From a virus: 29,555 nt of DNA. Each line of letters begins with the position of its first letter. Positions within the stretch are counted from its first letter, which is position 1. The stretch is taken from positions 1 to 29,555 of IMG/VR virus record IMGVR_UViG_3300031999_001378; one strand, 5' to 3'. A program made the position numbers and the translations under genes. Shown piece after piece: positions 4,712 to 11,886 of the stretch. The notes under the pieces were generated by a model. That model did not search any database. It worked only from the letters and a program-made list of their open reading frames with translations, and was not told where the DNA came from.

Positions 4712-6880
4712 TTACCTCATTCCTACCATTGAAGTGATGTTAGTCTTGGCAACTTTACCCTGTCTAGCACGCTTCTCCTGATGTTTCTGAACTATTCTTT
4801 TCGCAACGGCGCGTCCAATATCACCTTCATCCCATTTAGGCATAGAACCCTTGTTCATTACTACATGAAACTGTCTACGCTTAGTTTCGATGGTATTATC
4901 TAGATGTTCATCTACTGTTCCTTCGGCTTCGGGAACAATGATATTGATAACATTAGATAATTGTCCAATTCTCCTGAATCGGCCCGGTGCGGCTTGGTCC
5001 TCATTCTGTGGATTCCACTGTCTCTCATGTAGAATACAGTCTGCACAACTTTGGAGGTCAATACCTTCTCCACAAGCTAGTGTAGACGCTACCATGACAC
5101 AACGCTTCGATTTCAAGAAATCTTCTTGAACTTGGTATCCTTCAGGTTTACCAGTATGTTCTGAGGTATACTGATACACAGGAATTTCCTCGTCAACTAA
5201 TCTCTGTGCTAATTGATACCAATTAGGATTAGATGCCTTGTCGGTATTCCTGAGGGCACTAATCATTAATTGTCCAACATCCTTATGATGAACAAAGATG
5301 ACTAATTTCTTATCTGTGTCCTCAATGAATTCTTCGACATATCCAAGTGTAGCAGGGATTTTGGCGAGGCCCACTATATGCCTCATTCTAGCCATTTTAG
5401 CTACAACTTCGATACCTGATAATGCGTCCTCATTACCATCTTTTTCTGCTACTGCGTCATTATACCACTCAACGAAATCTGATACAGAATCATCATAGGT
5501 ATCCTGTGATAATTCATCAAGCTGCATATTCAGTTTCGTTCGATTGATATCGGGAAATTCATCCATTACTTCGTTGTATTCACGACGAATTAATAGATTA
5601 GCAGTATATTCCCTGAACTTTTCAGGACGGCGAATACCACCCATCTTCTTTTTGTTACCCTGCCAGTAATAATCTACCCAAGTATCAAGAAATGCTTGAT
5701 TAGAGTAGAACTTGATAGGGTCAATCATGTTTAGAACAGGGAAGAATTCACTCCCCCGGTTTTTCCACGGTGTCCCTGATAGAGGAATAACCTTACAACC
5801 ATTGTTGTTGACCAACTTGCGAACTTCTTGAGTCCTCGCACTATCAACATTCTTAATCTGTTGACATTCATCGAGAATCACCAATTTGATGTTGAGTTTC
5901 TCAAGTTTCTCACGTGGGAATCTACGAAGTAAATCGTAGGGAATGATGTAGCACTTGAGATTGGGCATCACAAAATCTTTCGAGGTTGTGATAATCTGTG
6001 CTAGGAAGTCTGGGCCTAACCATCGAATCAGCTGCTTAAACCATTGAAATTTAATAGCTGATTTGGTGACAATGAGAGTAGGCGTGTAGAGTTTCGCGTG
6101 GAATCTCAATAATGCGAGAGCTTCTACAGTCTTACCCAGTCCCATATCATCGAAGAATCCAAACCCTTTCTGCATAGCTAGTGCAATCTCAGCAGCCCTA
6201 GCACCTACAGTCTGGAAATTGAATAGCTTGTATTCACCACAGATTTCACACCTGTTCTTATCCCAAGTGTGTTTGCAATTCTTAATCTCTGGTTTCCAAT
6301 CATTAGAAACCATTGTTTCATACGGGGTCTGTTTGGGTAATACTTTCTTAATGATATGGAAGCATTCGAGAGTAATCAATTTAACAGTATTTCCATCTTT
6401 ATCTACTGTCTCAATTGCAAACTTCTCAATTGCTACCTTACCACAATCGGGACATTTCTCTTGTAGGCGAGTGACTGAGAACTTCGGAGTTCTGATGACA
6501 TTAACTACTTCTTTAACTTCTACTGTCATCTCAACAGTAGCGCCAGACCTAATGGCATCTAATACATATTCAGGAATGTTGAGATGTGAGCAAGGCTGAG
6601 TATTATCACAACCAATTTCCCTAGCTTTATCAGCCCATATTTCATTATGAGCCTGACCGGGACAAAGCGCGTGGGCTACTTCATGTTTAATTGTGCAGAC
6701 TACTTCATCGTAAGGATGTATGTCTACATGATGTGCATTGATTATGATGCACTTATCCTTGTATACACACAATCCTAGGAATGGTTGATTAGGGTCTGAA
6801 GTTAGACGGACGTGCCAATCAGATAAGCCATGCTTATCTAATTCGTCCCGGCATAGTTTAGATGCTACATGCCTATTCAT
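4712..6880 (-). CDS. SprT-like metalloprotease fused to SNF2-family helicase/translocase
   Basis: The 722-residue product starts at ATG 6880 (GAGG seven bases upstream). Residues 1-95 resemble an SprT protease: HEVAH at 66-70 and a third ligand at His78 (GQAHNEIWADKAREIGC). Two cysteine pairs follow, CPDC at 143-146 and CEIC at 211-214, probably zinc ribbons. The rest is an SNF2-type ATPase: motif I DDMGLGKT (244-251), motif II DECQ (337-340), motif III SGTP (368-371), and motifs V/VI in ACGEGIDLQ and QAAPGRFRRIGQ (to 640). SNF2 enzymes translocate on duplex DNA, and SprT/SPRTN proteases cut proteins bound or crosslinked to DNA. The fusion suggests removal of proteins from DNA during phage replication; this is inference. 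Confidence 0.85.
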   Translation of the reverse strand: MNRHVASKLCRDELDKHGLSDWHVRLTSDPNQPFLGLCVYKDKCIIINAHHVDIHPYDEVVCTIKHEVAHALCPGQAHNEIWADKAREIGCDNTQPCSHLNIPEYVLDAIRSGATVEMTVEVKEVVNVIRTPKFSVTRLQEKCPDCGKVAIEKFAIETVDKDGNTVKLITLECFHIIKKVLPKQTPYETMVSNDWKPEIKNCKHTWDKNRCEICGEYKLFNFQTVGARAAEIALAMQKGFGFFDDMGLGKTVEALALLRFHAKLYTPTLIVTKSAIKFQWFKQLIRWLGPDFLAQIITTSKDFVMPNLKCYIIPYDLLRRFPREKLEKLNIKLVILDECQQIKNVDSARTQEVRKLVNNNGCKVIPLSGTPWKNRGSEFFPVLNMIDPIKFYSNQAFLDTWVDYYWQGNKKKMGGIRRPEKFREYTANLLIRREYNEVMDEFPDINRTKLNMQLDELSQDTYDDSVSDFVEWYNDAVAEKDGNEDALSGIEVVAKMARMRHIVGLAKIPATLGYVEEFIEDTDKKLVIFVHHKDVGQLMISALRNTDKASNPNWYQLAQRLVDEEIPVYQYTSEHTGKPEGYQVQEDFLKSKRCVMVASTLACGEGIDLQSCADCILHERQWNPQNEDQAAPGRFRRIGQLSNVINIIVPEAEGTVDEHLDNTIETKRRQFHVVMNKGSMPKWDEGDIGRAVAKRIVQKHQEKRARQGKVAKTNITSMVGMR

Positions 6881-7415: not shown

Positions 7416-7432
7416 TTAATCCGAAGGATTAA
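7416..7432 (-). other. Short hairpin spanning a stop codon
   Basis: TTAATCC (7416-7422) and GGATTAA (7426-7432) are perfect inverted repeats around a three-base loop. They include the stop codon of the first leftward gene. No U-run follows, so read-through into the operon is expected. It may separate the translation or stability of the first gene from the rest. Confidence 0.35.
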
Positions 7433-8169
7433 GACTTCGATTCCTTAATGGAATTCCGAAGCATGTTCGCAGCAGTTTCAACAGAAATTCCCTTCTGAAC
7501 TACTAACATCTGAAGTGTGAATTCTGAGACTCCCAATTCAGCAGCGAACTTTCTCAATTGAACCTTGTCAATCTTTTTGGAAGTAGTTGTGGTTTTGATA
7601 GACTTTGCGCCGATTGACTTAGGCGCGACTGGTTTATAAGATATATCAGATATCTTAAGTTTCTCACGTTCTTCTACTTTCAGCTGATTAGAAAGCTGAT
7701 TCAAGTAAACCTGAATAGCTTTCTGTTGATTACCAGCCTCAATAACTTTCTGATTTAATTCAAACACAACGCTTTTGAAGTGCGTAAAGCGTCGCATTAA
7801 TTCTTCGGCCAATGCGTATGGCTTATTGATTATTGAAGAATCGTCAAGGATGGATTGTTTCAATTCTACGATTGAAACGGTAGCGGCGTTGAATAGGTCA
7901 GTTCGGACAATAATACTATCGTCTGTTTGACGCGCGGTATTAAGTGCAGCGTTCAGTTTATTGTCAACAATAATGGGATTATTATTGACCATTTCAACTT
8001 GTGCCTCAATTTCGGCATTGTAACATTCGTCACAAAACCACATAGCCTTACTATGTAATTTCTTGACGGGAACTCCAATCTCTGTAATCTCGCCAGATTC
8101 CAGAGTTTTGAAACTTGTTTTATCACAAGCCTCACATTTACCTAGTTTGAGACTCAGCGTGGTAATCAT
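7429..8169 (-). CDS. First leftward gene: zinc-ribbon protein with coiled coil and C-terminal helical domain
   Basis: The 246-residue protein starts at ATG 8169, nine bases after GGAG. A zinc ribbon is formed by Cys12/Cys15 and Cys46/Cys49 (KCEACDK, FCDECYN). Residues 70-165 look helical, with a probable coiled coil (LMRRFTHFKSVVFELNQKVI). A basic Ser/Thr/Lys linker follows, and then a small helical domain from about 198 (VQLRKFAAELGVSEFTLQML) that resembles UBA or helix-turn-helix folds. As the gene nearest the leftward promoter it should be made first and could regulate early expression or replication. That role is inferred from position, and the family is not named. Confidence 0.65.
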   Translation of the reverse strand: MITTLSLKLGKCEACDKTSFKTLESGEITEIGVPVKKLHSKAMWFCDECYNAEIEAQVEMVNNNPIIVDNKLNAALNTARQTDDSIIVRTDLFNAATVSIVELKQSILDDSSIINKPYALAEELMRRFTHFKSVVFELNQKVIEAGNQQKAIQVYLNQLSNQLKVEEREKLKISDISYKPVAPKSIGAKSIKTTTTSKKIDKVQLRKFAAELGVSEFTLQMLVVQKGISVETAANMLRNSIKESKS

Positions 8170-8282
8170 TGTCAGATTCTCCAGTTACCAGTTACTAGCA
8201 GTTAATAATAATAGTGTCTACTTTTGATGACACCTTCGATTCGCCTGTCAGTAAATGAGATGCAACATTCAGGCCGACTTCC

Positions 8283-8291
8283 ATTATACCA
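8283..8291 (-). promoter_or_regulatory. Leftward promoter, extended -10
   Basis: Read leftward, the sequence is TGGTATAAT: a perfect -10 with an extended TGn element. The predicted transcription start is near 8276, about 107 bases before ATG 8169. A perfect TTGACA lies upstream (complement of 8301-8306), but it is only 12 bases from the -10, too close for a normal -35, and it is part of a palindrome. The promoter would serve the whole leftward arm. Confidence 0.6.
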
Positions 8292-8297
8292 TATACA

Positions 8298-8319
8298 GTA
8301 TGTCAAAAAACTGACATAC
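8298..8319. promoter_or_regulatory. Palindromic operator overlapping the leftward promoter -35 region
   Basis: GTATGTCA (8298-8305) and TGACATAC (8312-8319) are perfect inverted repeats with a six-base A-rich spacer. The site covers the -35 area of the leftward promoter, so a bound dimer would block or modify RNA polymerase. No repressor gene was identified in the window. Confidence 0.55.
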
Positions 8320-8360
8320 CATATGTTGTGGTTCGGTCATTCGCCCTAGTTACATAAATT

Positions 8361-8372
8361 GTCACTAGTGAC
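8361..8372. promoter_or_regulatory. Palindrome GTCACTAGTGAC
   Basis: This is a perfect 12-base palindrome inside AAATTGTCACTAGTGAC. AAATTGTCACT recurs exactly at 10025-10035 in the other intergenic region. It shares TGTCA/TGAC half-sites with the operator at 8298-8319 and is a likely second binding site for the same regulator. Confidence 0.45.
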
Positions 8373-8380
8373 GCAAATTG

Positions 8381-8404
8381 TGTCACTGTCCTCTTTAGTG
8401 GACA
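8381..8404. promoter_or_regulatory. Imperfect inverted repeat of the TGTCACT family
   Basis: TGTCACT (8381-8387) faces AGTGGACA (8397-8404), a near-complement with one extra G. It lies directly beside the palindrome at 8361-8372 and is again preceded by AAATTG. It may be a weaker third operator. Confidence 0.35.
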
Positions 8405-8478
8405 CTTTTATTATCATATCCCATAGCTACAGTTATATAATTATGGTGGTATTAAATATATAATATTTTTTGAAAAAA

Positions 8479-8535
8479 GGACATTCTGTGAACTTTCCGT
8501 GAATGTTCCGTGAATGTTCTGTGAATGTTCCGTGG
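8479..8535. repeat. Left iteron array, five 11-bp units
   Basis: TTCYGTG occurs at 8484, 8495, 8506, 8517 and 8528, exactly 11 bases apart, with most units reading TTCCGTGAATG or TTCTGTGAATG. The 11-base period puts every unit on about the same face of the helix, as expected for cooperative protein binding. The array is the inverted counterpart of 8848-8904. Confidence 0.8.
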
Positions 8536-8675
8536 TCGGGTTCCGCCCGAAGTGATTGATTCGATTGCACTTAAGGCGCAGCCCCCCGGACCCCCGAGGG
8601 CCATACCGGGCATAAATGAAATTTTTGGTTTTCCTACTTAGAGGAAACTTTTTGGGGTTTTGGGTATTATATTAT

Positions 8676-8700
8676 AAAAAAAAAAAAAAAAAAAAAAAAA
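8676..8700 (+). repeat. Poly(A) run of 25
   Basis: Twenty-five consecutive A follow TATTATATTAT and precede GAATAAG. The run lies nearly midway between the two iteron arrays. It could be a real rigid or easily melted tract, or its length could be an assembly or sequencing artefact. Homopolymer length should not be trusted without reads. Confidence 0.8.
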
Positions 8701-8847
8701 GAATAAGACAAACCACTCACTCACACTTCACAGAACGGGTGTCCTATTCAGGTGACAGAGTGTAGAAAGTATACCCCTAGAGCCTATCCTCCCTCTCCCC
8801 CTGACTCGTAAGTGCCCTCGAATCAGCTACTTAGGTCAGAATGACCT

Positions 8848-8904
8848 CCACGGAAACATCACAGAATGTCCACGGAAATATCACGGAAACATCACAGAAC
8901 ATCC
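8848..8904. repeat. Right iteron array, five 11-bp units, inverted
   Basis: CACRGAA occurs at 8849, 8860, 8871, 8882 and 8893, again exactly 11 bases apart. Read on the minus strand, the order of the variable base (T,C,C,T,C in TTCYGTG) is the same as in the left array. By hand alignment the two 57-base arrays match at 44 positions. They therefore form one long imperfect inverted repeat built from internal tandem repeats. Confidence 0.8.
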
Positions 8905-8994
8905 TGATTTACGTTTCCATTATAAATTTGATAATAGCTAATATTTATAGTGATAAGACTTTCGTTATAAATGAAATGCGAGTATCTACCATAC

Positions 8995-9135
8995 GATAAG
9001 CAGCAGTTTCCGCCTAATGAATATCAGTTACACCACGCGATAAGCAGATTTACCCGCCCTGTGCATAAAATGATATGGGAAACTGTTTGGGATTGTATAT
9101 AGAGGTAGGACTATAGGATAAGCAGTTAAACCGCC
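8995..9135. repeat. Three bipartite direct repeats GATAAGCAG...CCGCC
   Basis: GATAAGCAG occurs at 8995, 9039 and 9117, each followed after six, six and five bases by CCGCC (9010, 9054, 9131). The first two copies are exactly 44 bases apart and also share preceding CCA and CG bases. The fixed two-part design suggests a protein-binding or promoter-like element. The intervening bases vary, so this is not simple duplication. Confidence 0.7.
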
Positions 9136-9141
9136 CCATAC

Positions 9142-9181
9142 AAAAAAATCCCCCACCCACGATATTCTGTGGATGAGGGAT
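9142..9181 (-). terminator. Rho-independent terminator of the leftward cassette
   Basis: On the minus strand a 13-base stem (bases 9169-9181 pairing with 9148-9160, with two G-U pairs) encloses the eight-base loop 9161-9168. It is followed by a run of seven U (complement of 9142-9148). This is a strong classical terminator nine bases after the stop codon of the gene at 9190. It would stop cassette transcription before it enters the repeat and origin region. Confidence 0.85.
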
Positions 9182-9189
9182 GCAGACTT

Positions 9190-11378: not shown

Positions 11379-11618
11379 ATGCAACTTCTATCCATCGGAT
11401 ATCCACAGACTCTAACTCAGAATACCATTTATGCTCTACCCGCGAGGCGCACATTACTATTTAGTGATGGCGCGGGGGCTGCATTTGATATCGCTACAGA
11501 AGAAACAATGGCTGTCCATATTGGTCCTCTTACATTAGTAGATGGTATGCACGATTTGTCGGGTGCATTTATTCGATGCACTTCTGGTAATGTTAGAGTT
11601 ACCTTGAAACCCTTCTAG
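11379..11618 (+). CDS. Small beta-rich protein, tandem paralogue A
   Basis: The 79-residue protein starts at ATG 11379, seven bases after AGGA. It begins MQLLSIGYPQTLT, the same thirteen residues as the next gene, and shares later motifs (YALP, ADGM- or VDGM-like, SGAFIR against SGGFIR). It appears all beta. The pair arose by duplication. Proteins like this recur in uncultured phages near packaging genes, but I know no function; a capsid or host-surface binding role is possible. Confidence 0.65.
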   Translation: MQLLSIGYPQTLTQNTIYALPARRTLLFSDGAGAAFDIATEETMAVHIGPLTLVDGMHDLSGAFIRCTSGNVRVTLKPF

Positions 11619-11625
11619 GAATACT

Positions 11626-11886
11626 ATGCAACTCCTATCAATCGGTTATCCTCAAACCTTAACCACTGGTGGTGCAGGTGCACCTACTGTCTATGCCTTA
11701 CCGGGTAAGCGTTGCCTTCTATTCTGTTCCACTCCTTTAGCCTCACTCTCACAATCTACAGATGAAGCTTTTACTGCTAATATTGCTATGACACTTGCAG
11801 ATGGCATGGAAGAAGTTTCAGGTGGATTCATCCGAAATGATGGAATAGCTGACGTTGAAATTACTTTGATGCCGTATGTATACTAA
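11626..11886 (+). CDS. Small beta-rich protein, tandem paralogue B
   Basis: The product has 86 residues from ATG 11626 with AGGA five bases upstream. It is paralogous to the gene just before it. In the first 39 bases I count eight differences and all are synonymous, which shows selection on the protein. The copies diverge in the middle (CCTTLASL-like loop here, acidic helix-like segment there), so they may bind different targets or form a heteromer. Its stop overlaps the next start as TAATG. Confidence 0.65.
   Translation: MQLLSIGYPQTLTTGGAGAPTVYALPGKRCLLFCSTPLASLSQSTDEAFTANIAMTLADGMEEVSGGFIRNDGIADVEITLMPYVY

Follow-up and report, generated by a model that had tools for sequence, protein, structure and literature searches.

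The DNA analysed here (the window, 29.5 kb) is a whole IMG/VR record, a linear and incomplete contig whose relatives extend to about 46 kb. The minus-strand half carries a leftward replication and recombination module, with a Sak4-like annealing protein (849-1694), a SprT-SNF2 helicase (4712-6880) and a Cas4-like exonuclease. Also on this strand are genes for a 110-residue zinc protein that we call p110 (1778-2110; motifs HxH, CxxxxC, CECNRC and PHCxxC) and for p246 (7429-8169), a conserved protein with an N-terminal zinc domain, a long coiled coil and a C-terminal three-helix domain. p246 has no family match, and fold and PDB searches with it gave no significant hit. The element described below, which p246 adjoins, lies in a non-coding gap of about 1 kb (8170-9189) bounded by the start of p246 and a 69-aa leftward ORF. 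Further to the right there are two tandem paralogous small genes (11379-11618 and 11626-11886), both starting with MQLLSIGYPQTL. In G001, a relative of 46 kb, the gene set also includes a UDG-PolA polymerase, a DUF3987 primase/helicase and Endo VII, and the plus-strand half encodes terminase, capsid and tail proteins. The source is probably a lytic phage lineage, and an uncultured one because no GenBank phage has a match to its portal protein, p110, p113 (a 113-aa neighbour of the element) or p142. A search of bacterial genomes with the helicase found no relative and so gives no lead on the host.

Two arrays of short repeats face each other in the gap. The left array (8484-8534, plus strand) has five copies of TTCYGTG in steps of exactly 11 bp, starting at 8484, 8495, 8506, 8517 and 8528, and the right array (8849-8899, minus strand) has five copies of the reverse complement, CACRGAA, starting at 8849, 8860, 8871, 8882 and 8893. 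All of these positions agree with those listed in an earlier, sequence-only reading of the window, and we also recovered its count of 44 matching positions out of 57 when the sequence from 8479 onward is compared with the sequence running back from 8904. A repeat search delimits the arms as 63-nt segments, 76% complementary and 312 nt apart, the spacing that had been claimed. The two patterns match only 9 (TTCYGTG) and 8 (CACRGAA) times in the whole window, so most matches sit in the arrays. The longest in-phase run was 1 in 200 Markov-1 simulations, compared to the observed runs of 5 and 5, and a chance origin of the arrays is excluded. AT-rich DNA lies outside each array, at 8430-8478 on the left and 8912-8955 on the right. 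Beyond the right-hand stretch there are three GATAAGCAG repeats with a CCGCC tail (at 8995, 9039 and 9117); relatives have GATTAGCA repeats at this place. Palindromes of operator-like or terminator-like appearance occur to the left of the element, at 8298-8319 and 8362-8404 (GTATGTCA..TGACATAC; AGTGACGCAAATTGTGTCACT, with a DNA fold z of -3.5; and TGTCC..GGACA), and the TGTCC..GGACA palindromes are found again in relatives.

Near the midpoint between the arrays is an A/T element, TATTATATTATA-A25-GAATAA (8662-8706, plus strand), which is a candidate unwinding element. It comprises about 40 bp of A/T with the 25 A's of the earlier reading, here placed at 8676-8700, at its centre, and this is the only A-run of at least 12 in the window. 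Most arms in the lineage also have a quasi-palindrome, CTAAGTCGTT..AACGACTTAG, and a GC patch on the inward side of the array. The left one in the window (8550-8572, plus strand) has the form AAGTG...CACTT, and a TAA-type/TTA-type pair is present in 15 of 17 left halves. The right one, TAAGTGCCCTCGAATCAGCTACTTA (8809-8833, minus strand), is the only such match in the window and is represented in 14 of 17 right halves. As DNA structures these central hairpins are weak, with z scores of -0.9 (left) and -2.4 (right).

A strict search with TTCYGTG finds only one true relative with the mirrored layout, L011 (the same virus as G001), and a near-identical strain, L023. L011 is diverged from the window, with 65-81% DNA identity. 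The element became visible across the family only after we anchored the search on the neighbouring gene, p113, which gathered 59 contigs, and on the poly(A). Nearly all contigs that reach the site have arrays on both sides of a poly(A) whose strand never varies. Both flanks are present at 21 loci, some of them near-duplicates, representing about 18 distinct viruses. On both sides of all 21 loci, the best repeat lag is either 11 or twice that, 22; the mean best match at lag 11 is 0.77 and 0.73 for the two sides, compared to 0.39-0.48 at other lags except 22. Five-unit array scores range from 38 to 50, against a mean of 32 and a maximum of 38 in shuffled sequences (a test in which the window itself was left out and duplicates were kept). 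Each array has five units, or sometimes six. In the 17 viruses that we measured, the homologous place is occupied by a run of A15 to A25 on the same strand, at a distance of 138 ± 14 bp from the left array and 131 ± 9 bp from the right array. Even a very distant relative, L248, whose p246 has 29% identity, has matching mirrored arrays, built from another unit. Many contigs in this lineage (L057, L074, L081, L082, L023 and others) stop at the poly(A) or immediately next to it, which suggests run-length variation within populations or an assembly break. A-runs of 13-28 are seen in contigs cut near this point.

The unit itself differs from virus to virus–for example, TTCYGTG in the window and TTCCCTAC, TTCTTGGC, TTCCATAC or ATCCGCCC in others, with very heterogeneous units in G016. 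The general form is TTCY-NNN-C-N3, in which TTC is common to nearly all viruses and position 7 is also shared. Positions 4-6 hold only 0.07-0.25 bits of information when pooled across viruses, compared to 1.2-1.3 bits within one virus. At these positions the two arms of one virus agree with each other at 0.61, compared to 0.29 between viruses, a difference matched in 0 of 20,000 permutations (with the window included and the set dereplicated). The spacer positions agree far less between arms (0.43 versus 0.34; 3 of 20,000 permutations), and the order of the units is not mirrored, being no better than random across 17 viruses (p = 0.37). The sequence-only reading had proposed that selection keeps both the phase and the order of the units. 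Phase is indeed kept in every relative with both flanks, but order is not, and the T,C,C,T,C series shared by the two arrays of the window is a coincidence by this test. Because the units agree between arms, the spacers agree much less and the order is not conserved, the pattern points to a sequence-specific binder acting in trans and not to pairing between the arms. From these sequence comparisons, a single such protein probably reads all ten sites, as had been suggested from the window alone.

We looked for this protein among 14 core families by comparing protein distances with iteron distances after removing overall relatedness, with about 16 independent viruses. p110 gave a correlation of 0.60 (partial 0.65; 0 of 1000 permutations) in the first test. 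With 21 viruses the partial correlation was 0.38 (0 of 500 permutations), and p110 was the sole family of the 14 to reach zero. Strict dereplication left a partial correlation of 0.35 (p = 0.012), and p = 0.048 in the smallest set. In one subset, of 10 viruses, a value of p = 0.018 was also obtained for the primase family. We rejected p246, SNF2, the TerS-like protein (partial r = 0.08, p = 0.31), HTH80, Sak4 and the Cas4-like protein as iteron binders, because they do not co-vary with the iterons.

Individual pairs of viruses illustrate the association. In the close pair G021/G023, SNF2 is 96% identical and p246 89-90%, but p110 only 75%, and the iterons differ (TTCTTGGC versus TTCCCTACT). 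Between G019 and L168, the Cas4-like and Sak4 proteins differ by 5% and p110 by 40%; here too the units differ. Conversely, units are shared and p110 is similar in the pairs L168/G023 and L186/G014, and the overall distant G011 and G023 both have CYTAC units and the p110 segment KVTL[S/N]. The p110 gene does not adjoin the arrays but is 6.5 kb away. The SNF2, p246 and Cas4-like genes lie between them and show no co-variation, so the p110 signal is not due to linkage. In sliding windows the co-variation peaks at IGKQVMNQSSGK, where an AlphaFold2 model (pLDDT 84.7) places a short helix, residues 63-66, between zinc ligands; the rest of the protein correlates nearly as strongly as this segment (0.36 versus 0.41 in a separate test). 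Fold and PDB searches with p110 gave no significant match and it falls in no known family, apart from weak matches to Ogr/Delta zinc fingers in 10 of 40 p110 members (best E-value 2.7e-4), the window's own member not being among those listed. On sequence evidence, we regard p110 as an unproven, statistically supported candidate for the iteron binder. Beyond the view of the sequence-only reading, then, the units of the two arms change together from virus to virus, and so does a small zinc protein encoded at a distance.

The sequence-only reading had called the element a candidate replication origin, and this is still the best reading, with the function itself inferred. We think it probable, with some room for doubt, that the element is an iteron-type origin with a mirrored layout, with p110 as its candidate initiator. 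Several features support this: phased sites, a central A/T core, conservation, a non-coding location where the gene modules diverge, and a replication gene set, the adjoining module coding for the UDG-PolA polymerase, DUF3987 primase/helicase, Sak4, Cas4-like exonuclease and SNF2 helicase. The arrays are tandem, phased direct repeats of the kind expected for predicted protein binding, and they stand beside an A/T-rich element that is kept in relatives and could have an unwinding role. Origin function, melting of the A/T core and bidirectional loading are what we infer from these features. In such a mechanism, the 11-bp sites, one per helical turn, would lie on one face of the DNA, five (sometimes six) per array, and many copies of one phage-encoded protein would occupy both facing arrays. 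Both assemblies would be directed towards the TATAATATTAT-poly(A) element at the centre and melt the DNA there, and the phage helicase-primase would be loaded in both directions. The short predicted helix of p110 between its zinc ligands may read the variable triplet of TTCY-NNN-C.

GC skew had been proposed as a check on origin position. The skew minimum is at most about 1.7 kb from the element in four near-complete genomes, yet the skew tracks the coding strand: its maximum is at +29-31 kb, where the coding strands converge, and the third-position skew of p113, which is to the right of the element on the minus strand, equals that of the left genes. The skew is therefore coding-driven and cannot locate the origin. 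An apparent skew maximum opposite the element was dropped as an artefact of genome rotation.

Among other readings, the one that survives best, though we consider it unlikely, is transcription control, in which the arrays would be activator or repressor sites for divergent early (left) and late (right) transcription and p110 an Ogr/Delta-like zinc activator. The element does lie between the leftward and rightward modules, repressor-operator arrays likewise diversify among related phages, and the Ogr/Delta matches described above fit this possibility. However, the nearest start codon (8169) is more than 300 bp from the arrays and the first rightward gene (10326) is 1.4 kb away, no strong promoter adjoins the arrays, and there are separate operator-like palindromes near the start of p246 (8298-8404). 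Transcription control would also leave the poly(A) and its placement at the midpoint unexplained. Improbable, and lower in our estimation, is a packaging (pac) site bound by the small terminase. Pac sites are often near terS, and the start of the TerS-like gene (10577) is 1.7 kb to the right, but the TerS-like protein is among those whose distances do not co-vary with the iterons, mirrored arrays would give packaging no single direction, and about half of the 46-47 kb contigs pass through the site and end elsewhere. Both transcription control and packaging are less probable than an origin. A partition site of a phage-plasmid is very improbable: short-repeat arrays are typical of centromeres, but the gene set looks lytic, and the genes that we read, without dedicated ParA models, in the window and in near-complete relatives include no ParA-type or integrase gene. 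We give almost no credence to a structural element whose 76% complementary arms match because they pair as a cruciform or a long RNA stem, since arm-to-arm pairing is rejected by the unit-order test, the unit cores match between arms far more than the spacers do, and Rfam has no matches.

Literature searches found no description of the mirrored-array design of this proposed origin. Iteron origins of plasmids and lambdoid phages consist of iterons bound by a Rep or O protein and an AT-rich DUE. The present element resembles them in having tandem sites, spaced by one or more whole helical turns, beside A/T-rich DNA. Their iterons are read by a replicon-specific protein, whereas here such a reader is a candidate. 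It differs from them in having two facing arrays, a central A/T core and 11-bp units, and in that the array is neither within nor adjoining the candidate initiator gene. p110 is a small zinc protein without similarity to Rep, O or RepA_N; the arrays are non-coding, unlike that of lambda O, and no O-like or DnaD/DnaB_2 initiator was found among the proteins scanned. The nearest layout is that of archaeal oriC, in which an AT-rich DUE is flanked by initiator-bound origin recognition boxes (PMC5333045), but these boxes are longer than our 11-bp units, fewer and bound by the AAA+ protein Orc1/Cdc6, which had no match among the core proteins scanned. The nearest parallel in evolution is with geminiviruses, whose iterons are under diversifying selection, vary among close relatives and correspond to the iteron-related domain of their own Rep (PMC12548392), but these are unrelated ssDNA viruses with iterons of 5-6 nt and a rolling-circle Rep in place of a candidate zinc protein. 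Repeats with a central poly-A tract also occur at a mobile-element origin, in the RepA_N iterons of Gram-positive plasmids and the PLE satellite (PMC7145576). In RepA_N origins every unit has a poly-A of its own, on which inverted sub-repeats converge, whereas here one poly(A) lies between two arrays of asymmetric units, and no RepA_N match was found among the proteins scanned.

TTCYGTG arrays with 11-bp steps also occur inside replication-initiator-type genes of unrelated phages (L001, L004, L008, L010, L014, L017, L024, L025 and L030), and several of these are preceded by an AT-rich TTATCATTGTTGTT stretch. The array-bearing gene is of the DnaB_2 type in L001 and L008 and the Lin1244_N type in L010. 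These three share the heptamer and the step with our element, but their arrays are one-sided and inside a coding gene, with no central poly(A) and no p110 homolog, and for the origin reading they offer an analogy only. Because none of the compared families agrees with the element in all its defining features, we file it under none of them; the best reading, by analogy, is that it would work like an iteron origin.

If this reading is true, dozens of uncultured phages would have a symmetric origin whose two arrays evolve jointly in genomes that otherwise stay similar, an origin counterpart of plasmid incompatibility or of iteron diversification in geminiviruses. Competition among co-infecting relatives, satellites or defences would probably be the driver. 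The reading would also tie a zinc protein family that had no annotation to sequence-specific DNA binding, and about 20 natural pairs of protein and site would be available for working out DNA recognition. A further step, which we put forward tentatively and at slightly less than even chances, is that this is a new class of origin: twofold-symmetric, served by a new family of small zinc initiators (p110), with a short recognition helix and an iteron triplet that co-diversify and give each virus a private specificity. If so, it would provide a natural protein-DNA recognition code that can be read from metagenomes.
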